Assembly: GCA_018669475.1 (NCBI GenBank)
Contig: JABHCC010000189.1
Location: 82,383 to 146,382 of the forward strand
Direction of reading: 5' to 3'
Source of the DNA: Bacteroidota bacterium
GTDB lineage: Bacteria; Bacteroidota; Bacteroidia; Bacteroidales; UBA12481
DNA: 64,000 nucleotides
A program made the position numbers and the translations under genes. This document shows, piece by piece, positions 11,550 to 54,759 of the stretch. Below the pieces are notes generated by a model. It made no database searches. It saw only the letters and a program-made list of their open reading frames with translations, and was not told where the DNA came from. How positions within the stretch are numbered: position 1 is the first letter of the stretch; each line of letters opens with the position of its first letter.

Positions 11550-12137
11550 TTATTCAAACATCCAATCTTCAAGGGGTTGGTTTTCTTCGTCAGATATCAG
11601 CTCTTCAAACATCCAGTCTTCAATGGCTTGACCTTCTTCTTCAAGCACTAGTTCATTTAGCATCCACTCTTCTATTGGCTGTTCTTCTTCTTCCTCGGCC
11701 AGTTCATTAAACATCCAGTCTTCCAAAGGCTGAGCTTCTTCTTCTACCAGTTCATCAAACATCCAGTCTTCAATGGGCTCAACTTCTTCCTCTATCAGTT
11801 CATCAAACATCCAGTCTTCAAAAGGATTGGCATGATACTCGTTGTAAAAATCTAATATTTCAATGGCGTCACTGTCGATGACTAACTCTATATCTTGTTC
11901 ATAATAACAAACTGTTATCCCTTCAAGCTCGTCAAACTGCTGATTCAGGACAACAACATCTGTTTCATTAAGTTCAAATACTTCAAGGATGAACTTTAAA
12001 AGTGGGGCATGCATTTTAACACGTACAGTTTCTTTCTTATCGGGGCTGGCAGAATCTTTTTCTGCTTTTGCTTGTGTTCCGAAAGTTAGAGCGAGAATAA
12101 TGATCAGGGCGCTTATTTTGCTTGTCAGATTTTTCAT
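11550..12137 (-). CDS. Secreted acidic protein with six EDWMF tandem repeats
   Basis: Protein of 195 residues with signal peptide 1-25 (cleavage near AKA). Residues 30-103 are a small conserved-looking domain with no cysteine pair or catalytic motif that I recognise. From residue 104 to the last residue it consists of six copies of a 16-17-residue unit, roughly P-L/I-E-D-W-M-F-D-E-L-V-E-E-E, with Trp-Met at 109, 125, 141, 158, 175 and 192. The last copy ends at WMFE. The repeat region is strongly acidic. I know no function; cation binding or a docking surface for a partner are guesses. It is monocistronic and divergent from the U32 gene. Confidence 0.85.
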   Translation of the reverse strand: MKNLTSKISALIIILALTFGTQAKAEKDSASPDKKETVRVKMHAPLLKFILEVFELNETDVVVLNQQFDELEGITVCYYEQDIELVIDSDAIEILDFYNEYHANPFEDWMFDELIEEEVEPIEDWMFDELVEEEAQPLEDWMFNELAEEEEEQPIEEWMLNELVLEEEGQAIEDWMFEELISDEENQPLEDWMFE

Positions 12138-12306
12138 TTTTATTTCCTCCTGTTGTTAAAATGTTTTCATATATAAGACGCCGCTACATGAATTTCGTTA
12201 CATGGGTTTTGTGTTAAACAATGTGAATGTTAGGCCCTTATTGTTAATGCCATGTTAATTCAGATAGTAAATTGCAAATGAGAATGATTATTGAATCCAT
12301 TTTCAG

Positions 12307-15893: not shown

Positions 15894-17438
15894 TTACTGG
15901 TAAGATAAGACATTCTCTATTTTTTGAGCTAATTTTTCAGCAGCAGGAGGATCATAATTAGACATTATTGCAACAGTATATCCTGAATTCATATACATTG
16001 CCAGGTGAGAGTTTAAGCCAGCAGTACCACCGTTATGACCAACAATTCTCTCACCATTAACAAATTTTTCCGTGAAGAGATAGGCGTACTTATTTGTCTC
16101 ATTTCTGTTTACTTTTCCTGTCGTCATTATATCAAAATTTTCTTTATTGAGCAAAATATTATTTCGCAATGCAAGGTCAAATTTTAAAAGATCTTCAACG
16201 GTTGAGTAACCCCCTCCTGCTGGTCCCCCTTTAACAGGATTCATAAACAAATTATTCCTCCGTGGATTAAATGATCTTCCCACTGATCTACCATTAGTGT
16301 ATCCAATAGCGAGATTATCAATCGATTCAGAGATATTGTAACAATCAGTATTTCCCATCTCTGCTGGTCCGGTTATAAATCTTCTTATGTATTCATCATA
16401 ACTTAAGCCCGCAATTTCCTCAATTATCAACCCTAAAACTAGTGGTCCACAATTGCTATATTCAAATCTTTCACCAGGTTCAAAGAGCAAAGGGTTTCCG
16501 TTTGCAAGATTATCGTAGTCAGATACCGTGTTAATCTCAGATTTTTTTGGTGACTCAAAAAATTCACGCCAGTATGACCCCATTCCAGAAGTATGCGTTA
16601 GCAAATGATGGATAGTTACCTTATCTCTGATATCCTCATTTGGATAATTTGGAAGATGCTTTCCAACTTTATCATCAAGATTTAATTTACCTTGCTGAAC
16701 AAGTTGCATGATGGCAGTTCCGGTAAACATTTTATTCATGGAAGCCAAACAGAATTTTGTATCTGGTTTATTGGGTACTTTAAATCCTTGATGTGCATAC
16801 CCAACCGCTTTTGAGTATATTGGTTTGCCTTTTTTTGCCACTAATACTGTTCCTGAGAATTCATCTTTTTCTACGAGTTGATCAATAAATTCATCAAGAA
16901 TCTTAGTTAGTTCTTTTTGTGAGATGCTTTTTGGTGCCCTTGATTTGTTCTTGCTGCTTTTGCCAGTTTCGGTAGTTTCCTGAGGTGACCTTTTTTTAGC
17001 AGAGGATGATTCATAAACTCCGCCAGGACGAAAACCCATACGGGTAATTCTGTTTGGTGCAGTTTCTTCAGTTTGCAGATCCAGACTGAGTAATTGGCTT
17101 GTTGAAGGGGAAAGTAGCAAACAGCTTATTCGATATTCCGAAGAAGTTTCAATTTTGTTGAGTTCCAGCTTCTTATTGAGGTCATGTGTTCGGACGATTA
17201 TACCGACATGTTGATCTAAGGGGAAAGCATTCCTAAATGCTACTGCAAAATTTCCATTAACAAATTTCTCAATTTCGTCTGGTTTTCCTGAATTTATTAA
17301 ATCCATGACTTCTTTTGCGCGAATACCAGCTGGTGTTTCCGGAAATTTAACTTTTTCATGCGAGCGATACTCTGAGGCACTAACGAGACTCAATGCGAAG
17401 AATACAGAAAGGATGGTGAATATTAGTCTTAGTTTCAT
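15894..17438 (-). CDS. Secreted beta-lactamase-fold serine hydrolase with extra N-terminal domain
   Basis: Exported class C beta-lactamase/penicillin-binding-type hydrolase of 514 residues. Signal peptide is 1-22. Residues 25-140 form an unrecognised domain (small NTF2-like or similar), then a Ser/Lys-rich linker at about 144-172. The catalytic domain has SMNK at 233-236 (nucleophile Ser233, Lys236), YSN at 327-329 and HNGG at 468-471, so all three motifs are intact. Such proteins act as D-amino-acid peptidases, esterases or amidases; the substrate cannot be read from sequence. It sits between a second hydrolase of the same fold (25 bases upstream) and the esterase-fold gene. Confidence 0.9.
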   Translation of the reverse strand: MKLRLIFTILSVFFALSLVSASEYRSHEKVKFPETPAGIRAKEVMDLINSGKPDEIEKFVNGNFAVAFRNAFPLDQHVGIIVRTHDLNKKLELNKIETSSEYRISCLLLSPSTSQLLSLDLQTEETAPNRITRMGFRPGGVYESSSAKKRSPQETTETGKSSKNKSRAPKSISQKELTKILDEFIDQLVEKDEFSGTVLVAKKGKPIYSKAVGYAHQGFKVPNKPDTKFCLASMNKMFTGTAIMQLVQQGKLNLDDKVGKHLPNYPNEDIRDKVTIHHLLTHTSGMGSYWREFFESPKKSEINTVSDYDNLANGNPLLFEPGERFEYSNCGPLVLGLIIEEIAGLSYDEYIRRFITGPAEMGNTDCYNISESIDNLAIGYTNGRSVGRSFNPRRNNLFMNPVKGGPAGGGYSTVEDLLKFDLALRNNILLNKENFDIMTTGKVNRNETNKYAYLFTEKFVNGERIVGHNGGTAGLNSHLAMYMNSGYTVAIMSNYDPPAAEKLAQKIENVLSYQ

Positions 17439-17463
17439 TTTGTTGATTGTTAATACGTCCTGC

Positions 17464-18834
17464 TTAAATCTTTCGGGCTTTCATTTTATTACCACCAATG
17501 AGAAAAACTAACTCCTTAATAACTCCTTTTTCATCTTTTTGAAATTCAAGATATGCGTCAAATGCTTTAATATGAAATCTTGTTTCAGATTCCGGAAATA
17601 ATTCAACCAGGGGCTGTCCTGGAGGAGCCATTAACAGCTTACCATTCTCAACCAGCACTTTGAGATTATTGCCTGGTTCAAATTCGTAATTACCTGCATA
17701 ATCAAAGAGGTCGTCGCCTGTAATTGTAATATATTGTTTAACCTCCGGTATTTTGTATTCATCGCCAAACATAATTGAAGCAAGATCTTTACTTATTGTT
17801 GAAACTTTGCCGTGATAATAGTTGCTTAACACTATAATGCAGGCATTTTCATCAGGATATCTTAATATTCTTGTATGGAATCCTTCAACCCTTCCACTGG
17901 CTGATGTTTTTCTCCTACCATTTTTTTCCGATATAACCCAGCCATACCCTTTTTTTTCATTATAAGGAGTGAAGATTTTTTCCATATAATCCTTACTAAG
18001 TATTTTTTGCGTATATAAAGCCCTGTCCCACAGATAAAGATCCTCTGTCGTTGAGTACAGCCATCCTGATCCATCTGCAAATGACATATCTGTGTAATCA
18101 GCATTAATAATTCCATCATGTCCAACAGAGTAACCAGATGCCCTGTTTATAATAATGTCATTATAATCAGAACAACAGGTGTTTCCCATGTCAAGGGGCC
18201 CGAAGATATTTTGATGAAGGTAGTCTTCATAGCTAGAACCGGATACTTCTTCAATTATATAACCCAGGATAACATATCCTGAATTACTGTACTCAGTTCT
18301 TTCACCTGGAGAGAATTCCAAAGGCTGAGCTTTTATAATATCAATAATGTCAGACAAAGGGGTTTTGACTGTTTTAATATTTTGATATTCTGTGGTGTAT
18401 AGAAAATCCAGAATGCCAGATGTATGTATAAGTAATTGATGTATTGTAATGTCATCTCCCTGAGGAAAATCAGGAATAAATTTCGACAATTTGTCATTAA
18501 TATCCAGGAAACCCTTTTCACACAGTTGCATGATAGCCATTGCTGTGAATTGTTTGGTCATTGAAGCGATTCTGAATTTTGTTTGGGGTGTGTTTTTAAC
18601 ATTATGCTCATAGCTAGCCATTCCATAAGATTTGCTGAACAGAATATCATTGTCTTTGGCAAGCAGAATGCTTCCACTGAAATTATCTAGTTTCCTTTGA
18701 ACCTGCATGTAGGCCTCAACTTCTTCCTGAATAGACTGTGAATTACAATAATGACTAGACATAAAGATCATTAATAGTATGCAGCTGAGGATTTTAGTTG
18801 TGCGCTTTAAACTTTTAATTTTATTCGTTTTCAT
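17464..18834 (-). CDS. Secreted beta-lactamase-fold serine hydrolase
   Basis: Exported hydrolase of 456 residues and first gene of a three-gene operon. The N-terminus is basic, then a hydrophobic signal at about 14-33. Motif one is SMTK at 91-94 and motif two YSN at 182-184. At motif three, where H-x-G is usual, the sequence is SGRVEGFHT, so the motif is altered but the position is recognisable. The last 100 residues form a beta-rich C-terminal domain (DDLFDYAGNYEFEPGNNLKVLVENGKL) of the type often found after this fold. Divergent from the LytS/LytR-type pair at 19 kb, which may control it. Confidence 0.9.
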   Translation of the reverse strand: MKTNKIKSLKRTTKILSCILLMIFMSSHYCNSQSIQEEVEAYMQVQRKLDNFSGSILLAKDNDILFSKSYGMASYEHNVKNTPQTKFRIASMTKQFTAMAIMQLCEKGFLDINDKLSKFIPDFPQGDDITIHQLLIHTSGILDFLYTTEYQNIKTVKTPLSDIIDIIKAQPLEFSPGERTEYSNSGYVILGYIIEEVSGSSYEDYLHQNIFGPLDMGNTCCSDYNDIIINRASGYSVGHDGIINADYTDMSFADGSGWLYSTTEDLYLWDRALYTQKILSKDYMEKIFTPYNEKKGYGWVISEKNGRRKTSASGRVEGFHTRILRYPDENACIIVLSNYYHGKVSTISKDLASIMFGDEYKIPEVKQYITITGDDLFDYAGNYEFEPGNNLKVLVENGKLLMAPPGQPLVELFPESETRFHIKAFDAYLEFQKDEKGVIKELVFLIGGNKMKARKI

Positions 18835-31744: not shown

Positions 31745-33253
31745 TCACTGCTTATTGATTTTTACCTGATATTCCTTCATCTGTTTAGTAGGTTCAATAA
31801 TGGAGTAACCTTCCCAGATGGAATCAGAGTGTGAAGTGATGCGCTCAGGTTTTACTCCTCTTTCCTGTATGGCCTCAAAACTCTCCTCATTATAATTCTC
31901 CCGGAATATTACCAGCGTTTCATTGGTGGATTCCTGGTATCCCTGCACATTCATATCCAGAGCTATTTCATACAATTTCTTATTCAGCGGAAAACGTTTT
32001 TGCTTTCTAATAATCTCAAATGGTCTTTTAATACCCCATCTGCTTGCGCTGTGTCTCATCGAGTATTTTAAAAAGTAGCCAAATTTATCTTTTTCATAAA
32101 GCAGCAATCCAGCATCTTCTTCTTCATTAAAGTTGATCCCTAACAGTTTGATCCCCTTTTCTTTTTTCCTTTCCTTAAGAGAATACTCAATTCTAAGAAT
32201 TGCATAACTTTCAATTGAAATATAAATCATCCCATTATAATCACCTCCAACCATCCCTGAGAAACTAAGCGCATAGGCATCCTCTCCTCTAATACCAATA
32301 ATCCCATTATTCGTGTATTTATATCGGTTTGGTTTTTGAATAAAATCCCAGTTCCAATTCAAGTCCATGTCCAGTACATACAAGCTCTCTTTGTTTCTCA
32401 GATAAAGTGAGTCCATCTTTTTCTCAGCGATAGCAGTACTGTCATCTTCCAATCCTGATACTTTTACATGAGATTCTCTGAAAAAGAATGGACCAGTTTT
32501 ATACTTCAGGAAAGTTTTATCGTCAGTTTGAGTGTCAAGTAACTCTGTAATAACCTTTTCAATCCTGTCAAGTTCACCCCCATCGTCTTCTCTAAGGATC
32601 ACTTTTTTGATTCCTTCAACTTTGTTTTTAGTTTTAGCAGAGTCTGTTGGGAGCGTATAAAGAGTATATAAATGGTCTGTATACGAACGATTATATTTTG
32701 GTATACTATCAAGCATTTCATTTACCAGGTTTTCATCAATTTCAGGAACAGTGCTCTTCTTTAGTAACAGCTCAAAGGTGTTAATGTACGATGCGCTGTT
32801 ACTCCTCTTAAACACTTCTCTTTTTTGAGCAATCAGGGAATAGTTTAAGCCTTTTCTTTCCATGGCTTTTTTAATTAGTTCCTTCGGGCTATATGGATTA
32901 GCTATGATGGCAATAGTTCTGAGCTTGACAGGCTTTTCCTTAAGCTCAATAGTTATTCCATCTTTGAGATCATTGATGGCCATTGTGAGCGTTTGATAGC
33001 CAATATGATAGAAAGCAATGCTGTCAGCTCTTTCGATCTTATCCAGGTTTATCGTGAATTCACCATTTTGATTGCTAACAGTTCCGTAGGTGCTTCCAAC
33101 AACGGCAATATTGACAAACAACATCGCTTTGTCAGTGTCAGTATCTAATACGACACCACCAACCTGCTGTTGGCCAAACAAGGAAATTGACTGACTCAGG
33201 ATCAAAAGAATTACATAATTAATTATGTAATAAATTACGTAATTTCTAATCAT
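31745..33253 (-). CDS. CarboxypepD_reg-like domain protein, outer-membrane associated
   Basis: Exported protein of 502 residues. A long hydrophobic N-terminus (1-27) serves as signal. Residues 30-110 form a CarboxypepD_reg-like domain (VGGVVLDTDTDKAMLFVNIAVVGSTYGTVSNQNGEF). The rest is beta-strand rich and resembles the middle part of DUF5686-type proteins, but it is shorter and lacks the final barrel. It is probably cotranscribed with the cupin gene, which ends four bases before its start. Confidence 0.8.
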   Translation of the reverse strand: MIRNYVIYYIINYVILLILSQSISLFGQQQVGGVVLDTDTDKAMLFVNIAVVGSTYGTVSNQNGEFTINLDKIERADSIAFYHIGYQTLTMAINDLKDGITIELKEKPVKLRTIAIIANPYSPKELIKKAMERKGLNYSLIAQKREVFKRSNSASYINTFELLLKKSTVPEIDENLVNEMLDSIPKYNRSYTDHLYTLYTLPTDSAKTKNKVEGIKKVILREDDGGELDRIEKVITELLDTQTDDKTFLKYKTGPFFFRESHVKVSGLEDDSTAIAEKKMDSLYLRNKESLYVLDMDLNWNWDFIQKPNRYKYTNNGIIGIRGEDAYALSFSGMVGGDYNGMIYISIESYAILRIEYSLKERKKEKGIKLLGINFNEEEDAGLLLYEKDKFGYFLKYSMRHSASRWGIKRPFEIIRKQKRFPLNKKLYEIALDMNVQGYQESTNETLVIFRENYNEESFEAIQERGVKPERITSHSDSIWEGYSIIEPTKQMKEYQVKINKQ

Positions 33254-34013: not shown

Positions 34014-36407
34014 TTATTCATCTCGCAGGCTCTCGGCAGGATTCATTCTTGCAACTTTGAGGGCATTAATTGTTAATGTTAAGCTTACAATAAATGCTGA
34101 TAATATAAACGCAATTATGAATAAACTGATATCAGGTTTAATCTTATAAGCAAATAAACTCAGCCATTTACGCATGGATATTAGTGTAATGGGCAAGGCG
34201 AGAAAGTTGGCCAGAATTACGGTGAAAACAAACTCTCGGAGAATCATCTTCACTATATCAACGATCTGGGCTCCATGAACCTTACGGATACCAATTTCTT
34301 TGTTTTTCCTTCGGGCCACAAACAGTGAGAGACCGAATAAGCCAAGGCATGAAATGAAGATTGCCAGGACAGTGAAAAAGGTCAGAATCTTTGAAATAGT
34401 ACTTTCTTTTTTGTACAATTCCTGGAATAAATCATCCATAAAATGCAATTCTATTGGTTTTCCTTCAGTCAGGTTAGACCAAACGTCCTGGATGTGAATT
34501 CTGCCGCTCTCTGATAGCTGATTTTTTAAACGAACAGCAATATGTCTGGCAGGTACTGTTGGAGTACGTGAAAATAGTAAAACTGGCCCTATACCACGAT
34601 GAACAGTTCCTGAAATAAAATCATCTGTAACACCGATTATTTCATATTCCTTTTCAGTGTTGTCAAACATCGTTTTTGTAATTATTGTTTTCCCTACCGG
34701 ATCTGTAAGGTTTAAACTATTAACAGCTGTTGAATTGAGAATTACTCCAGTGTGTTTATCTGATTCCTCAGTGATAAAGGAACGACCAGCCTTTATGTCA
34801 ATTTTCAATGTTTCTATGTAGTCCTTGTCGACATAATATTGCTCAATGAAAACAGATTTGTCAGGCTCATTTGTGGTGCTAGCACCGTTTGACCATCTGT
34901 TACGTGACATTATATTTGAAAAGGCAGAAGAGACTAATTCAATGTCGGGATGCTTTTCTAATTCTGTTTTAAACACATCTAAATTTGAAATGCGCTGTTG
35001 ATCATCATTAATTATTAATAGGTTTTCAAGCTCAAATTCAGGATGAAGATTTAATGCATACTTAATCTGTTTCTGAATAATGGTGACGCTTGTAAACAAT
35101 ACAACAAATATTAATAGTTGAAACCCGATTAGCACTTTCCTCAGGAGGGATGGATTTCCTTTTCTGGGATTTCTGGTAACCAGTATATCAATAGGCTTGA
35201 GCCGTGATAAGTGCAAAGAGATATAACTGCCAGAAATGCTACCAACCAATAGAGTTATTACAATGAAACCAATAATAAAAGGCCAGTTACCTGAGTAAGA
35301 GTCGGCGAATTCCTGACCAAAGAAGCTACTTATCAGTCCTTTGCTCCTTTCTACAATTATCAAAGCCAGAGGGAGGGAGAGAAGAGCTATGAATAAGGAT
35401 TCCATTTGGATTTGAGAAATCAGACCAATACGATTGGCGCCAACAACTTTCTTAATTCCTATTTCTTTGTATCGTAGTGTTGATTCTGCTGTGGCCAGAA
35501 TGATATAATTAATACATGCAATAAGTAGAATTAGAATTCCAATTCCTGAAAAAACCAGCATGCTTAATTTGTTTCCCTTGGCTATATGACTCCCATAAAT
35601 ATGTTCAGATTCAAGATAGAAGTCTTTAGCATTTTGTAATTGATAAAGCTGTTTACCTTCCGGATGGTACTTTTTACCTAAATCATTTAATTTCTTTTCA
35701 AGAAGGGGTATGTCAGCATTTTGTGAAAGCCTTAGGTACACCTCAAAAATGACGAAGTCCCAACCCATATAGGCCTCATATCTCTTTGGATCAAATCGAG
35801 TAATAAAGTCAGGATTAAAACCGGATTTCCCTGGAAGCTTATCCATAATACCAGTAACGGTAAGCCCGATATCCTCAGAGTCGTATTGAAAAAAAATAGA
35901 TTTTCCCATCGGATCTTGATCCCCGAAATATTTGAAGGCCATTTCTTTTGATAAAACAATTGATTGGGGATCATCAATCAGGTGCATGGGATTGCCCTGC
36001 AGAATGGGAACAGTGAAAATATCAAAGTAATCAGGATAGACTTCGTATACTACTCCCTTTTCAAGGTTGTATTCTTTGTCAGTACGTACATAGAAGGGAC
36101 GATTAACACGGGATTCCAATACACTCGCCTTCTCAACCTCCGGGAATTCCTCTTTAAGAATGGAGGCCAAGGCCCCGTAATTGATTGCAAAAACATTCAT
36201 GTCTCCACGATTCTGATCAGATGTAAGAACCCGAAAAATCTGATCCCTGTTTATCTGATTCTTCTCATAGCTAAACTCTCCAATGACATAAAGAAGTGTT
36301 AGGAAAGAGCAGGCCATGCCTAAAGAGAGTCCAACAATATTGATCAAAGTACTGATCTTGTTCCTCATCATCTGCCTGAAAGCATTTATAATTGTTCTTC
36401 TAATCAT
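34014..36407 (-). CDS. FtsX/MacB-type ABC transporter permease
   Basis: Inner-membrane permease of 797 residues. ATG 36405-36407 is preferred to a TTG three codons upstream. Layout: TM1 at about 20-40 (LINIVGLSLGMACSFLTLLY), a MacB-type periplasmic domain to about 280, three TM helices to about 415, a second periplasmic domain and three TM helices at the end, closing with LKVARMNPAESLRDE. This is a two-module FtsX-like permease as common in Bacteroidota. No ATPase gene is adjacent. It diverges from a sigma-54-type regulator/kinase pair, a frequent arrangement for these permeases, and a near-consensus -24/-12 site precedes it. Confidence 0.92.
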   Translation of the reverse strand: MIRRTIINAFRQMMRNKISTLINIVGLSLGMACSFLTLLYVIGEFSYEKNQINRDQIFRVLTSDQNRGDMNVFAINYGALASILKEEFPEVEKASVLESRVNRPFYVRTDKEYNLEKGVVYEVYPDYFDIFTVPILQGNPMHLIDDPQSIVLSKEMAFKYFGDQDPMGKSIFFQYDSEDIGLTVTGIMDKLPGKSGFNPDFITRFDPKRYEAYMGWDFVIFEVYLRLSQNADIPLLEKKLNDLGKKYHPEGKQLYQLQNAKDFYLESEHIYGSHIAKGNKLSMLVFSGIGILILLIACINYIILATAESTLRYKEIGIKKVVGANRIGLISQIQMESLFIALLSLPLALIIVERSKGLISSFFGQEFADSYSGNWPFIIGFIVITLLVGSISGSYISLHLSRLKPIDILVTRNPRKGNPSLLRKVLIGFQLLIFVVLFTSVTIIQKQIKYALNLHPEFELENLLIINDDQQRISNLDVFKTELEKHPDIELVSSAFSNIMSRNRWSNGASTTNEPDKSVFIEQYYVDKDYIETLKIDIKAGRSFITEESDKHTGVILNSTAVNSLNLTDPVGKTIITKTMFDNTEKEYEIIGVTDDFISGTVHRGIGPVLLFSRTPTVPARHIAVRLKNQLSESGRIHIQDVWSNLTEGKPIELHFMDDLFQELYKKESTISKILTFFTVLAIFISCLGLFGLSLFVARRKNKEIGIRKVHGAQIVDIVKMILREFVFTVILANFLALPITLISMRKWLSLFAYKIKPDISLFIIAFILSAFIVSLTLTINALKVARMNPAESLRDE

Positions 36408-36442
36408 AATTGACAATTTCTTTGTTGTTTCTTGCCAGACAA

Positions 36443-36458
36443 ACCAAGAAACATGCCG
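36443..36458 (-). promoter_or_regulatory. Near-consensus sigma-54 promoter for the FtsX-type permease
   Basis: On the minus strand, CGGCATGTTTCTTGGT aligns with TGGCACG-N4-TTGCW: -24 GG is present and the spacing to the -12 element is correct, but the -12 GC is GG. It lies 36 bases before the permease ATG, and the adjacent NtrC-type gene would supply the activator. The weak -12 element keeps this tentative. Confidence 0.3.
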
Positions 36459-36545
36459 GTGATAGTAATGGTCAGAGAACCAGTAAAATAGAAAAAATAT
36501 GAGCCAGCTTGTTCTTTTTCTTTAGTGTAGTTTCTTAACATTGGC

Positions 36546-36562
36546 TGTATGAATTTCATACA
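36546..36562. promoter_or_regulatory. Palindrome upstream of the NtrC-type regulator gene
   Basis: TGTATGAA (36546-36553) and TTCATACA (36555-36562) flank a single T. It is 59 bases before the regulator ATG and about 100 bases upstream of the candidate sigma-54 promoter of the permease, a distance suited to an enhancer site for an NtrC-type activator. Function is inferred. Confidence 0.45.
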
Positions 36563-36620
36563 TTTACTTTGCTTTCTCAATATCAACAATTTACTTTGAT
36601 CTCAAGAAAAATAATCTAAC

Positions 36621-37997
36621 ATGCTTGCGAAGGATAAGAAAGGTAAGATTTTATTGGTTGATGATAATCAAAGTGTTCTAAATTCCCTCAAATTACTTCT
36701 AAGTGACAGGTCTGAATATCTTGAGTGCCTGAGAGGTCCTGAACAAATCCCCGGGGCACTGAAAAAACATGAATTTGATGTGGTGATATTAGATATGAAC
36801 TTCTCGGCCGGTGTGAATAGTGGTGACGAGGGTCTGTTATGGCTTAAGAAAATTCTAAATCATGATGCAGCAATTAGTGTAGTGTTATTAACTGCTTACG
36901 GGAGTATTGATCTGGCTATAAAGGCTGTCAAGATGGGTGCTGTTGATTTCATAGTGAAACCCTGGGACAATAAAAAACTACTTGCTACCCTCAGTAGTGC
37001 ATTAAGGTTAAGAGAATCAGCAATCGAACTAAGAGACCTTAAAAAAAAGCAAAAGCAGATAAACCGAACGCATATAAGAAACGGCAATATCCTTCAAGCC
37101 AGATCCCCCGAAATGAAGAGCTTAAATGAGCAAATTGACAAGATTGTTTTAACAGATGTAAATATCCTGATACTTGGTGAAAGTGGTACAGGCAAGGAAG
37201 TTCTTGCCCAGGAATTACACAGGAGATCCAACAGAAGAGATGGTGCATTTATTAGTGTTGACCTGGGTGCGGTTGGAGAAACTGTTTTTGAAAGTGAATT
37301 ATTCGGACACAAACGCGGTTCTTTTACCGATGCCAAAGAAGATAGAATGGGACGGGTTCAGGTAGCCTCGGGAGGAACTCTTTTCTTAGATGAAATAGGA
37401 AATGTTCCGTTCTCACTGCAAGCTAAATTACTAACTCTGATTCAAAATAAAACTGTTACTCCAATTGGAGTCGATCACCCGGTTCCTGTTGACATCAGAT
37501 TAATATGCGCTACCAACATGGATCTGGAAGATATGGTTTCGGAGGGACTCTTTCGGGAAGATCTTTTCTATCGGATAAATACCATTCAGTTAACAATCCC
37601 AGCCCTGAGGGAAAGAACTACTGATATATCTGCATTTGCTCATTTTTTTCTGAAACATTATCAGGAGAAGTATCAGAAAGAGAAACTTGAATTCACCAGG
37701 GAAACCCTGGAAAAGGTGACCGGCTACTCTTGGCCGGGAAATATTAGAGAACTAAAGCATGCTATCGAAAGGGCTGTGATAATGAGCGATTCCTGTACCA
37801 TTTTACCCGAAGATATATTGTTGGCTGAAAAACGGCAATCTCCATTATTAATTAGAAAGCCCACATTGGATTTTGTGGAAAAGGAGACTATAAAAGCTGC
37901 GCTGCAAAACAATCTAGGTAATATTAGCCATACTGCAAAAGAGTTAAGCATTACTCGCCAGACACTATACGCCAAAATCTACAAATATGGTTTATAG
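36621..37997 (+). CDS. NtrC-family sigma-54-dependent response regulator
   Basis: Transcription activator of 458 residues. Receiver 8-125 has DD at 14-15 and phospho-acceptor Asp58 (VVILDMNF). The AAA+ domain at about 160-390 has Walker A GESGTGKE (186-193), the sigma-54 contact loop GSFTDA at 233-238 in place of GAFTGA (a common Bacteroidota form), and Walker B GGTLFLDEIG. A Fis-type helix-turn-helix closes the protein (GNISHTAKELSITRQTLYAKI). Its stop overlaps the next kinase gene by 11 bases. Likely target: the divergent FtsX-type permease. Confidence 0.95.
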   Translation: MLAKDKKGKILLVDDNQSVLNSLKLLLSDRSEYLECLRGPEQIPGALKKHEFDVVILDMNFSAGVNSGDEGLLWLKKILNHDAAISVVLLTAYGSIDLAIKAVKMGAVDFIVKPWDNKKLLATLSSALRLRESAIELRDLKKKQKQINRTHIRNGNILQARSPEMKSLNEQIDKIVLTDVNILILGESGTGKEVLAQELHRRSNRRDGAFISVDLGAVGETVFESELFGHKRGSFTDAKEDRMGRVQVASGGTLFLDEIGNVPFSLQAKLLTLIQNKTVTPIGVDHPVPVDIRLICATNMDLEDMVSEGLFREDLFYRINTIQLTIPALRERTTDISAFAHFFLKHYQEKYQKEKLEFTRETLEKVTGYSWPGNIRELKHAIERAVIMSDSCTILPEDILLAEKRQSPLLIRKPTLDFVEKETIKAALQNNLGNISHTAKELSITRQTLYAKIYKYGL

Positions 37998-39345
37998 CAG
38001 ACTGTTTTGGAATGTTATTATCAGAGTTATCTTGCTGACTGTAAATGCAGTGGCCCTGGGTTTTGCGCTTGTTTTTCTAAGCAAAGAGGATCTTCTTACC
38101 ATTACTTTTGTTGCTTGTCTCTTATTAGTTCAGGCTGTATTATTCGTTGTTTCTTTTAACCGGATTAACAGGGATTTGTCCTTATTTTTTGCCTCAGTGT
38201 ATGCAATGGATTCAACAATATCATTCAGAGATTCATTACTAACAAAACAATTTTCTGGTCTGTATAATGAATTGATGAAGGTGAACTCAATAATTGGCGG
38301 ATTGAAGATTGACCTGGAAGAGCAGAATCAGTATTATAAATCAATAACCAATCATATACCGACATCTGTCTTATCATATTATGATAATGGTGAAATTGGA
38401 CTGATCAATGAAGCTGCAAAGCAATCATTTGGGATTGGCAGCATTAGAAATATTGCTGAATTGTATGATGTAAACAGTGAATTGTCTGATTTTTTACTGA
38501 GTCATGAAAAGTCAGATCAGCAGGTGATTAAGACAAACATGAATGGAGAAAGTGTTTCACTCATGATAAAAATGTCATTGATAACTATTCGAAAAAAAAG
38601 AATTCGCATTGTATCTATTCAGAATATCGAGTCTGAATTGGTGCACAAAGAAGTAGAATCATGGCAAAGATTACTTAAAGTGCTAACACATGAAATCGCA
38701 AACTCTATTGCTCCTATATCATCTACAATCGATACGCTGAATGAGCTTACTTTCGAGGCTGGCACTGAGGATAATAATACTAAAATGAAAACCGGACTGG
38801 ATATTATCAAAGAAAGAAGCCAGGGTTTACTCCAGTTACTTGATGATATCCGTCGTTTTTCTTCTTTCCCACCACCAAAGAATGACCATGTTAATGTCAA
38901 AAGCCTGTTTGCAGAAACGATTGAACTACTTAAGGAGGAACTCAATCGTAAGAATATTATCGTTGAGATAGATGATAATAAACCTTCTCAAAGTATTTGG
39001 GCTGATAAGAAATTAATCACACATGTTTTGATCAACATAATAAGCAATGCTAAAGAGGCTTTCACTGAGAGCAAGGGAAATAGGATTATTCTCAGGTCAG
39101 ATAAGGATGAGTTGGGATTCATTAACCTGAGGGTTATCGATAATGGCATCGGCATCTCTAAGGAAAGAATCGAACAAATCTTCATACCGTTTTTTAGTAC
39201 AAAAGAAACCGGATCTGGGATTGGCTTAAGCATATCACGAGAAATAATGCATTTGCATGGTGGCACCTTACTCGTAAATTCAAAGCAAGGCCGAACAGAG
39301 TTTGTGTTAAAATTTAATAAATTGCTCCATGCAATTTACCCGTGA
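37987..39345 (+). CDS. NtrY/NtrB-like sensor histidine kinase
   Basis: Membrane kinase of 452 residues and probable partner of the upstream NtrC-type regulator. Two membrane helices at about 8-32 and 37-57 leave almost no periplasmic loop. A PAS-like segment lies at about 115-215. The dimerisation domain has LLKVLTHEIANSIAPI with His235, and the HATPase has NIISNAKEAF, DNGIGISKE and GSGIGLSISREIM. The start lies within the end of the regulator gene, and its 3' end overlaps the URO-D-like gene, so three genes are translationally linked. Confidence 0.94.
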   Translation: MVYSRLFWNVIIRVILLTVNAVALGFALVFLSKEDLLTITFVACLLLVQAVLFVVSFNRINRDLSLFFASVYAMDSTISFRDSLLTKQFSGLYNELMKVNSIIGGLKIDLEEQNQYYKSITNHIPTSVLSYYDNGEIGLINEAAKQSFGIGSIRNIAELYDVNSELSDFLLSHEKSDQQVIKTNMNGESVSLMIKMSLITIRKKRIRIVSIQNIESELVHKEVESWQRLLKVLTHEIANSIAPISSTIDTLNELTFEAGTEDNNTKMKTGLDIIKERSQGLLQLLDDIRRFSSFPPPKNDHVNVKSLFAETIELLKEELNRKNIIVEIDDNKPSQSIWADKKLITHVLINIISNAKEAFTESKGNRIILRSDKDELGFINLRVIDNGIGISKERIEQIFIPFFSTKETGSGIGLSISREIMHLHGGTLLVNSKQGRTEFVLKFNKLLHAIYP

Positions 39346-52060: not shown

Positions 52061-54499
52061 TCAGGCCCGGCTAAAAGCATCTGCAGGATTCGCTCTGGCA
52101 GCTTTCACAGCCTCCTTACTAATGGTTGCTGCCGCAAATATTAGAATCGCTATTGCCACGCCTGCAAGGGTTATTCCAAAGGCAATAAAATCAAAATCAA
52201 TCCGGTAGGCAAAGTTTTGCATCCATTTATTTATAAGGAAGAAAGAGGGTGCAGCTATCGCGGTAGCTATCAACAGCAGAATATAAGTTTCTTTAAAAAG
52301 AAGTAAGACAACCTGAAGAATGCTGGATCCATATGTCTTTCGCACAGCTATCTCTTTTGTTCGCAATATTGTACTGAAGGAGATCATTCCTAATAGTCCC
52401 AGGCAGGAAATTAATAAAGAGATTATGGAGAAAACCAGCAAAATTCGGCTTGTTCTTTTCTCAGCGCTGAAAATGCGGTCGAAAAAATCATCTAACCAAA
52501 AAGAATCTATTGGATAATCCGGAGCAAAAGAGCTCCAGGTTTGTTCAACAAACTGCATTACCTCTCCATTCGCCAGTCCGTTGGTTTTTATGCTAATTTT
52601 TCCGTACGATCCTTTTCCTATAACATACATTATTGCAGGCCCAATTGGCTTTTGCATTGATTGAAAATGGAAATCTTTGACAACTCCTATTATGGGAGTG
52701 AAAACTGCATCCCGGCCATCACCTGGAGGGACCCAGAATCGGGTTTCAGTTGGATTCTCTATTTGAAGTTCCCTTATCGTGGCCTCGTTAACTATAACCC
52801 CGGCAGAATCAGTAGGGTGATCTATGTTAAAGAATCTGCCTTCAGCCATTTCCAGCCCCATCACTTCATCCCATTCAAAACTAACTGCGGTTGACATCAG
52901 AGTATAGATTTTGTCAACACCTTCACCTTCAAGCCAATGCGCATTGTTTGAGAATATTGTTCCGGGCAGATGCCTCGAGCGGGCTACTTGATTGATATTT
53001 GTTTGGCTTAAAAGCTCTGATTTGAATGCTTCATATTGATTGCCAAGGAAATCTCCACTGTTGACAACAAGGACATTCTCTTTCTCAAAGCCAAGATCTT
53101 TATCTTGCATGAAATTTAATTGTCTGTAAGCTGTAGTTGTACAGGTGAGAATGATCAATGTTACAGCAAATTGAAGTATGACAAGGGTTTTTCTAAGTCT
53201 TCCCCGACCTCCTGTTCCTCCCTTGCTTCCTTTTAGCACATTCACTGGTTTTGTGGCCGCCAGGGCAATTGCCGGATACAATCCTGAAATCACCCCAACC
53301 AGTATCCCCATACCCAATAAAGCGAGGATTAGTCCGGGGCTGGAGAAAGGATTGAAAGTGAGAGATGAATTCGTTATGTTATTGAATGATGGGATAAGTA
53401 TGACAGCTATTATTACAGCAAATATTGTTGAAATGATACTAATAAAAGTGGATTCTGTCAGGAATTGTACAATAAGGGAGGAACGTGGGGAACCTAAAAG
53501 TTTTCGTACGCCTACTTCCAGAGATCTGTTTGCCGATCGGGCAGTGGCAAGATTGATAAAATTTATACTTGCAACCACAAGTATTAGCAAGGCCAGTGCG
53601 CTGAATATCAAAACATAAGATTTATCACCTGTAGGCTCGAATTCATACTGCAGGTTAGACTCCAGGTGAATGTCAGTGATCTTTGTTGTGATGTAATAAA
53701 AAGAGCTTCCTTGATTAATTAAATCGTCCAAGCTTAGATTTAGTATTTGCATAAGCATTGGACTGATATACTTTTCCAGTAAACTACTTAAACTTTCAGT
53801 AAAGTGTTCTTCATTTGCACCGGGTTTCAATAGAACATAAGTATAGAAATTGTGAGAAAGCCAATTGTCACTTTGTACTTCAGGACGGCTATGCAAGGCA
53901 GCAAGATAGCGGAAATGAAAATGTGAATTCAGAGGAGGATCTTCAACAACCCCACTTATCGTGAGTGAAGTCTCTTCTGTATTTATTTTCAGAATCTTCC
54001 CTATTGGATCCTCGTCCCCAAAGAATTTTATTGCCGTACTCTCAGTTATAACAACAGCAGATGGATCGCTTAAAACCTGTTTGGCATTCCCTTGCAAGAG
54101 TTTGAAGGAGAAAACTTCAAAAAACGTGGAATCAACATACAAAAAATCCTCTGAATCCTCCTGATAAGTCTGGTCTTCATATTTTACTAAATGGCTCGAC
54201 TGCTTATAAACCCTTGTAACATTTTCAACCTCAGGATACTCCTCTAAAAGGGGGGTAGCCATCAAACTTGAAGTAAGAGCCATATTCAGATCATTTCCAA
54301 GCATTTTCCCTCTGACGCCAATCCTGTATATTCTGTCAGATTTCTCATGGAATTTGTCGTAACTGATTTCATTATGTACATAAATGGATATCAGTATCGT
54401 AGCACACAGGCCAATCGTTAGTCCCAGAATATTTATCAGACTTGTACTCTTGTATTTCAATAGAGCCCGTATGGCTGATCGAAGATAGTTTCTTAGCAT
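52061..54499 (-). CDS. FtsX/MacB-type ABC transporter permease
   Basis: Inner-membrane permease of 812 residues. MLRNYLRSAIRALLKYKSTS at the chosen ATG (54497-54499) is the typical start of Bacteroidota FtsX-type permeases; an in-frame ATG 25 codons upstream is possible. TM1 is about 22-42, followed by a MacB-type periplasmic domain, three TM helices near 285-430, a second periplasmic domain, and three TM helices to the end, closing with VKAARANPADAFSRA. It shares its layout with the permease at 34 kb but is clearly diverged. No ATPase partner is adjacent. Confidence 0.92.
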   Translation of the reverse strand: MLRNYLRSAIRALLKYKSTSLINILGLTIGLCATILISIYVHNEISYDKFHEKSDRIYRIGVRGKMLGNDLNMALTSSLMATPLLEEYPEVENVTRVYKQSSHLVKYEDQTYQEDSEDFLYVDSTFFEVFSFKLLQGNAKQVLSDPSAVVITESTAIKFFGDEDPIGKILKINTEETSLTISGVVEDPPLNSHFHFRYLAALHSRPEVQSDNWLSHNFYTYVLLKPGANEEHFTESLSSLLEKYISPMLMQILNLSLDDLINQGSSFYYITTKITDIHLESNLQYEFEPTGDKSYVLIFSALALLILVVASINFINLATARSANRSLEVGVRKLLGSPRSSLIVQFLTESTFISIISTIFAVIIAVILIPSFNNITNSSLTFNPFSSPGLILALLGMGILVGVISGLYPAIALAATKPVNVLKGSKGGTGGRGRLRKTLVILQFAVTLIILTCTTTAYRQLNFMQDKDLGFEKENVLVVNSGDFLGNQYEAFKSELLSQTNINQVARSRHLPGTIFSNNAHWLEGEGVDKIYTLMSTAVSFEWDEVMGLEMAEGRFFNIDHPTDSAGVIVNEATIRELQIENPTETRFWVPPGDGRDAVFTPIIGVVKDFHFQSMQKPIGPAIMYVIGKGSYGKISIKTNGLANGEVMQFVEQTWSSFAPDYPIDSFWLDDFFDRIFSAEKRTSRILLVFSIISLLISCLGLLGMISFSTILRTKEIAVRKTYGSSILQVVLLLFKETYILLLIATAIAAPSFFLINKWMQNFAYRIDFDFIAFGITLAGVAIAILIFAAATISKEAVKAARANPADAFSRA

Positions 54500-54759
54500 A
54501 GGTTTAGAATCAGTATTATTTGCGAGATCCTCATTATTTGGACGAACAAACACCGCTTTAGTTACAACTTTCATTTACGAAAACCTGTTTTTTTGGCATT
54601 TTTCAGAATGAACATGAGCGGGGGATCTGGTTTATATAGGTGTATATATATATAAGTATTTGACGAACAGTCAGTCAAAAGCACTTTGATAATTTGAAAG
54701 CCCCTGATTATTGTGTAGGTTCACATACGAACTACGTTTAACTAAACTGCCCCGGATCT

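Follow-up and report, generated by a model that had tools for sequence, protein, structure and literature searches.

A putative exported acidic protein with Trp-Met repeats, and promoter types common to its family and MacAB-type exporter genes in Bacteroidales

The window, by which is meant the whole 64,000-nucleotide stretch of DNA analyzed, carries on its reverse strand, at positions 11,550–12,137, an open reading frame with an ATG start that encodes a protein of 195 amino acids, for which homologues exist. Residues 1–25 (12,063–12,137, reverse strand) form, as judged from the letters, a putative Sec-type signal peptide ending in AKA. They are followed on the same strand by an N-terminal domain at residues ∼26–105 (11,823–12,062), with a predicted β-α-α-β-β structure, and by an array of six units containing Trp-Met (WM) at residues ∼106–195 (11,553–11,822). 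The tryptophans are residues 109, 125, 141, 158, 175, and 192 (spacing 16/16/17/17/17), and the units, FEDWMFDEL, IEDWMFDEL, LEDWMFNEL, IEEWMLNEL, IEDWMFEEL, and LEDWMFE, have the general form [FIL]E[DE]WM[FL], the stop codon in the last unit lying one residue past WMF. The spacers between them are short and acidic (IEEEVEP, VEEEAQP, AEEEEEQP, VLEEEGQA, and ISDEENQP), and the mature protein has a net charge of about −52. The pattern E.WM occurs six times, compared with a mean of 0.06 and a maximum of 2 in 20,000 shuffles of the mature protein. The original prediction of an acidic protein with six WM units, spaced 16–17 residues apart and running up to the last residue, is therefore upheld by the Trp positions, the shuffle test, the stop codon, and the charge. 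The assignment of the array to the C-terminal half also stands for residues ∼106–195, but residues ∼26–105 should be regarded as a separate domain that is missing in other members of the family. The similarity of the DNA units that had been noted is seen in an imperfect 48-bp tandem repeat of 4.6 copies at 11,598–11,825, detected independently by Tandem Repeats Finder. Between the units of the window gene, pN/pS in the core is 0.34, and codon differences in the core are mostly synonymous, indicating that the protein motif is conserved and not merely the DNA.

Upstream of the WM gene, also on the reverse strand, is a putative ECF-sigma-type promoter core, TGTAAC-N16-CGTCTTA (12,174–12,202), preceded by a conserved element, TTAACA..TTAAC..TTCACATTNTTTAAC (12,203–12,258). 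TGTAAC and CGTC at such a spacing are what we take to be the usual form of an ECF sigma promoter. A second site, TGTAAC-N16-CGTC (54,541–54,566, reverse strand), is located 41 bp before the likely start, at 54,499, of a gene identified by domain match as a MacB_PCD/FtsX permease (52,061–54,499, reverse strand), which is a candidate for co-regulation. These are the only two TGTAAC-N14–19-CGTC sites in the 64 kb, where 0.15 would be expected, and none of 100 shuffles of the window reached two. No sigma54 −24/−12 site or palindrome of the type described below was found upstream of 12,137, and Rfam gave no match at the WM locus. The window protein has no NCBIfam match to the Por secretion tail of T9SS cargo (TIGR04183), and its C-terminal end is occupied by the array.

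Elsewhere in the window, a paralogous module at 34,014–39,345 consists of a MacB/FtsX permease gene (34,014–36,407, reverse strand) divergent from genes for a sigma54 activator (36,621–37,997, forward strand), 48% identical to the WM-linked activator discussed below, and its histidine kinase (37,987–39,345, forward strand). Two genes for serine hydrolases of the β-lactamase family, paralogues to the eye, stand in tandem at 15,894–18,834. At 33,209–33,244, where a reverse-strand gene begins, the palindromic 12-mer AATTACGTAATT occurs three times in tandem.

By the evidence of sequence, the window protein is a member of an undescribed family of WM-repeat proteins that is restricted, in the genomes sampled, to one bacterial order. 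Sequence searches of Pfam, NCBIfam, and PDB found no relative of it, and literature searches on motif strings returned noise and no paper on WM-repeat proteins; the earlier statement that no described family with a function is known accordingly holds. The profile search that had been proposed as a check was run, and homologues carrying the repeat do exist. The same genome has a second member (C194) with seven units and 32% identity, and a third (C63), which has five units and lacks the N-terminal domain almost entirely. Of the 12 genomes from the same taxonomic family (f1), 10 have members, and a three-unit profile built from 37 sequences found them in 20 of the 198 genomes sampled from the order (∼10%); in a sample of 296 genomes of the phylum the profile matched only in the genome of the window protein. 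A DNA pattern scan of ∼85,000 species added, among the matches listed, Carboxylicivirga, Plebeiobacterium, Anaerophaga, and many Bacteroidales metagenome-assembled genomes (MAGs), and all the listed arrays accepted as true are from Bacteroidota. The three-unit DNA pattern also matched in Firmicutes, Proteobacteria, and other groups, but these matches were rejected as low-complexity sequence or unrelated repeats.

The consensus of 177 units is L-x-[VI]-E-x-W-M-[TLF]-[DE]-x3-[FLY], with a hydrophobic residue preceding the Glu; it should be noted that Trp and Met were built into the search pattern, which accounts in part for their invariance outside f1. The Glu at −2 is never Asp, although Asp was permitted by the pattern. 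Degenerate units are rare (EDCM in L005 and SPWM in L211), and LExWMF is the exact C-terminal end of several members. The units number two to eight, lie on the C-terminal side, and are spaced 16–23 residues apart. The suggestion that copy number may vary between strains agrees with a same-genus orthologue that has three units rather than six. All 45 WM proteins considered are acidic when mature (net charge −8 to −52), and nearly all have N termini that look signal-like by eye, that of L211 being lipoprotein-like. Each unit conserves one Glu, one Trp, and one Met, and His and Cys are few. The N-terminal domain is variable or missing between members. In L025, L026, L028, and L030 (genomes G006, G008, G009, and G010), which form tandem gene clusters, it is present twice in tandem with one WM unit after each copy, and in L034, L229, and L242 (G008, G009, and G006) most units have drifted to [VP]PW[LM]-E-N-[ML]-x-F with retention of the ECF promoter.

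AlphaFold models of the full window protein (pLDDT 54) have a short helix for each unit, the repeats being of low confidence. The model of a better-sampled relative (pLDDT 69) contains the β-α-α-β-β N-terminal domain followed by a helix bearing the first WM. Comparison of this domain (from a query model of pLDDT 69) with PDB folds gave no useful match, the best Foldseek E being 0.26 and the best VIA Z 2.9. The possibility that it represents half of DUF4252 (PF14060) was raised by a likeness by eye to the first half of the latter, but was rejected when hhalign gave no support; the DUF4252 profile likewise has no match to the window protein (Pfam and hhalign).

No neighbors of WM genes are conserved across lineages, there being only local synteny, and a function based on operon context was therefore dropped. 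The genome-wide promoter counts that follow come from pattern searches with reversed-pattern controls, and the genomes compared are mostly MAGs. In f1, the layout upstream of WM genes is TTAACA-N5-TTAAC ... TTCACATT-N-TTTAAC ... TGTAAC-N15–17-CGTCTTA, with a gap that varies. The ECF-type core was found by pattern in 13 of 18 WM genes, and most of the others differ from it by one or two changes. A strict pattern had 30 matches in ten f1 genomes, about half of them before WM genes, compared with 13 for the reversed control; some matches are thus due to chance, and each one that does not precede a WM gene needs to be judged by its position. Matches some tens of bases before start codons belong to MacA-type HlyD adaptors (G004, G005, and G010) and a MacB/FtsX permease (G000); the MacA gene of G000 is also preceded by an ECF-type core, and in G004 and G010 such a promoter heads a MacA - MacB/FtsX - ATPase - TolC operon. 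Further matches near start codons involve head-GIN proteins, DUF4252-type proteins, and outer-membrane proteins. Operons in G000 (C133, 2155–3666, L317, outside the window; and C32, L316) contain genes for an ECF sigma factor, an anti-sigma-like protein, and a DUF4252 protein, with TGTAAC..CGTC before the sigma gene; their sigma factors are candidates for reading the WM promoters.

In the other families a different promoter type is found. Among 38 WM genes outside f1, 24 have a sigma54 −24/−12 site, 22 have a palindrome, TGTWCG-N4-CGWACA, and 21 have both, as against shuffle expectations of 0.26, 0.19, and 0, respectively. The palindrome is upstream of the sigma54 site at a distance that is nearly always 101–105 bp (72–73 in two cases). 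A strict search for it in 15 sigma54-type genomes recovered WM genes, MacA adaptors, ABC ATPases, an FtsX permease, an S46-type peptidase, and the gene of the activator described next, whereas the reversed control had two matches in total. Many of the matches, including those at MacA, ABC ATPase, FtsX permease, and activator genes, have a sigma54-like site downstream. At one S46-type peptidase gene (L273, G668 C82) the palindrome and the sigma54-like site are separated by only 70 bp. The activator, a receiver-AAA-Fis protein, is paired with a kinase. Its orthologue (66–79% identity, paralogues having at most 55%) was found in all 16 of the sigma54-type genomes with WM genes that were examined but in 0 of 13 others, ten of these belonging to f1 (Fisher p = 1.5 × 10−8, or 2 × 10−4 with f1 counted once). 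In 11 of these 16 genomes the activator gene adjoins one for MacA or for an ABC protein. The partner kinases are of the intramembrane type: in the 13 that could be parsed, two membrane segments lie side by side, with next to nothing in the periplasm. Six WM genes, five of them from rumen- or gut-type genomes, have neither promoter type; L083, for which the available upstream sequence is too short, is among them. Three gut- or rumen-type WM genes lacking both types (L104, L141, and L199) have in common a hairpin-like leader, AACTCCCCAACRCACATAAGGAGT.

The strongest clue to function, one on which the original prediction could not draw, is that WM genes and MacAB-type exporter genes, recognized by their MacB_PCD and FtsX, HlyD, ATPase, and OEP domains, appear to have the same promoter types. 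Since two unrelated sigma systems place scattered WM genes with the same exporter, the link is likely to be functional rather than positional, and the WM gene probably belongs, with the exporter, to an envelope-stress regulon. From the class of exporter, the intramembrane-type kinases, and the ECF companions, we infer that the inducer is envelope damage or antimicrobial peptides, and it is to envelope damage that the regulon would respond. A more specific reading, to which we give about an even chance, is that the window protein is an exported acidic accessory of the Bacteroidales envelope-stress response of the antimicrobial-peptide type, co-expressed with a MacA - MacB/FtsX - ATPase - TolC exporter. 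Against it count the failure to find a MacA orthologue in 11 of 29 genomes with WM genes, the six WM genes that have neither promoter type, the share of ECF-core matches due to chance, and the low confidence of the modeled repeats. Located in the periplasm or on the cell surface, the WM units would be short amphipathic helices strung along a flexible acidic chain, each of them a repeated docking motif. The array would work through multivalency, its likeliest catch being cationic amphipathic toxins or a damaged component of the envelope, and the caught compounds might be kept off the membrane or passed to the exporter. An E-x-WM core that is kept strictly while the acidic spacers vary fits the multivalent binder originally suggested, and a flexible, acidic chain in which a hydrophobic-aromatic helix recurs would suit multivalent capture of cationic amphipathic compounds, but this capture mechanism is put forward tentatively. 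It is likewise a possibility, held loosely, that exported short-motif arrays specific to Bacteroidales provide multivalent capture of membrane-active toxins, tied to MacAB-type exporters through sigma54 in most families and through an ECF sigma factor in f1, the motif and the exporter link being kept. Binding of cations by the array is not specifically supported by the residues that are conserved.

A strict E-x-WM core would not be needed by a mere charged trap, which suggests and would allow a specific protein partner. The units might then bind and recruit or cluster one envelope protein, such as MacA, TolC, or a protein of the outer membrane, with no capture of toxin, a reading that deserves consideration but is on balance improbable. 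The strictness of the motif despite large divergence, with Glu that is never replaced by Asp, and the purifying selection on the core are in its favor, but no partner strictly co-occurs: a MacA orthologue was not found in 11 of 29 genomes with WM genes, some of which are incomplete MAGs. It is unlikely that the protein is an exported precursor that is processed to release WM peptides, or is itself the cargo of MacAB-TolC, acting as a signal or an antagonistic peptide. Near-identical cores among variable spacers, variation in both copy number and the N-terminal part, co-regulation with an exporter, and members that end exactly at LExWMF would be consistent with this, but the spacers have no conserved cleavage site, no linkage to a protease or maturase was found, and the model of one relative places the first unit in a helix that packs beside the N-terminal domain. 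Slightly more doubtful is a CpxP-like role in feedback, in which the periplasmic protein would act on its own regulon by damping or adjusting the histidine kinase or the anti-sigma factor; WM genes are a target of both regulatory systems and occur in multiple copies per genome, but the partner kinases offer essentially no periplasmic part to bind, the family is retained under an unrelated ECF system, and two to eight repeat units are unlike CpxP. The very acidic composition might indicate a generic protein that binds cations or forms part of a matrix, its regulation being incidental, but conservation falls on Trp-Met and a single Glu and not on the acidic spacers, and the promoters point to a stress regulon, which makes this very improbable. 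Functionless neutral expansion of a DNA tandem repeat, which the imperfect 48-bp repeat and the differing unit numbers of relatives might suggest, is strongly disfavored and scarcely credible in view of the pN/pS between units, the constancy of the core across many families while spacers differ widely, and the conserved promoters.

The preferred reading, that of an exported accessory of the envelope-stress response, offers the first lead on function for a family of putatively exported repeat proteins that has no name, and would add an unsuspected extracytoplasmic player to the antimicrobial-peptide-type exporters of Bacteroidales. Guilt by association is strong here, the same gene pair being indicated by two unrelated regulatory systems, and the regulon is a clean example of sigma54 as opposed to ECF control between related families. 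Antimicrobial-peptide ABC permeases under sigma54 control in Bacteroidia are the subject of a published survey (PMC12316311), and the MacAB/FtsX exporters described there (COG0577) are of the same class as those whose genes appear to have promoters in common with WM genes; the sections of the survey considered here do not mention a WM-repeat partner, the palindrome spacing, or an ECF-controlled version. The DUF4252 proteins of ECF sigma/anti-sigma operons are small exported Bacteroidota proteins with the same ECF promoter type in f1, but they have no WM array, and their similarity by eye to the WM N-terminal domain has no homology support from profile comparison. CpxP, Spy, and ZraP are small exported products of envelope stress, compact and helical, and ZraP is under a sigma54 activator; WM proteins are proposed to be products of the same kind, but are unrelated in sequence, and CpxP, Spy, and ZraP have no arrays of acidic motifs. 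We know of no sequence relation between WM proteins and the streptococcal inhibitors of the SIC type, which are exported acidic proteins that contain repeats and bind cationic peptides; WM proteins resemble them in being putatively exported, acidic, and repeat-containing, and may trap such peptides.
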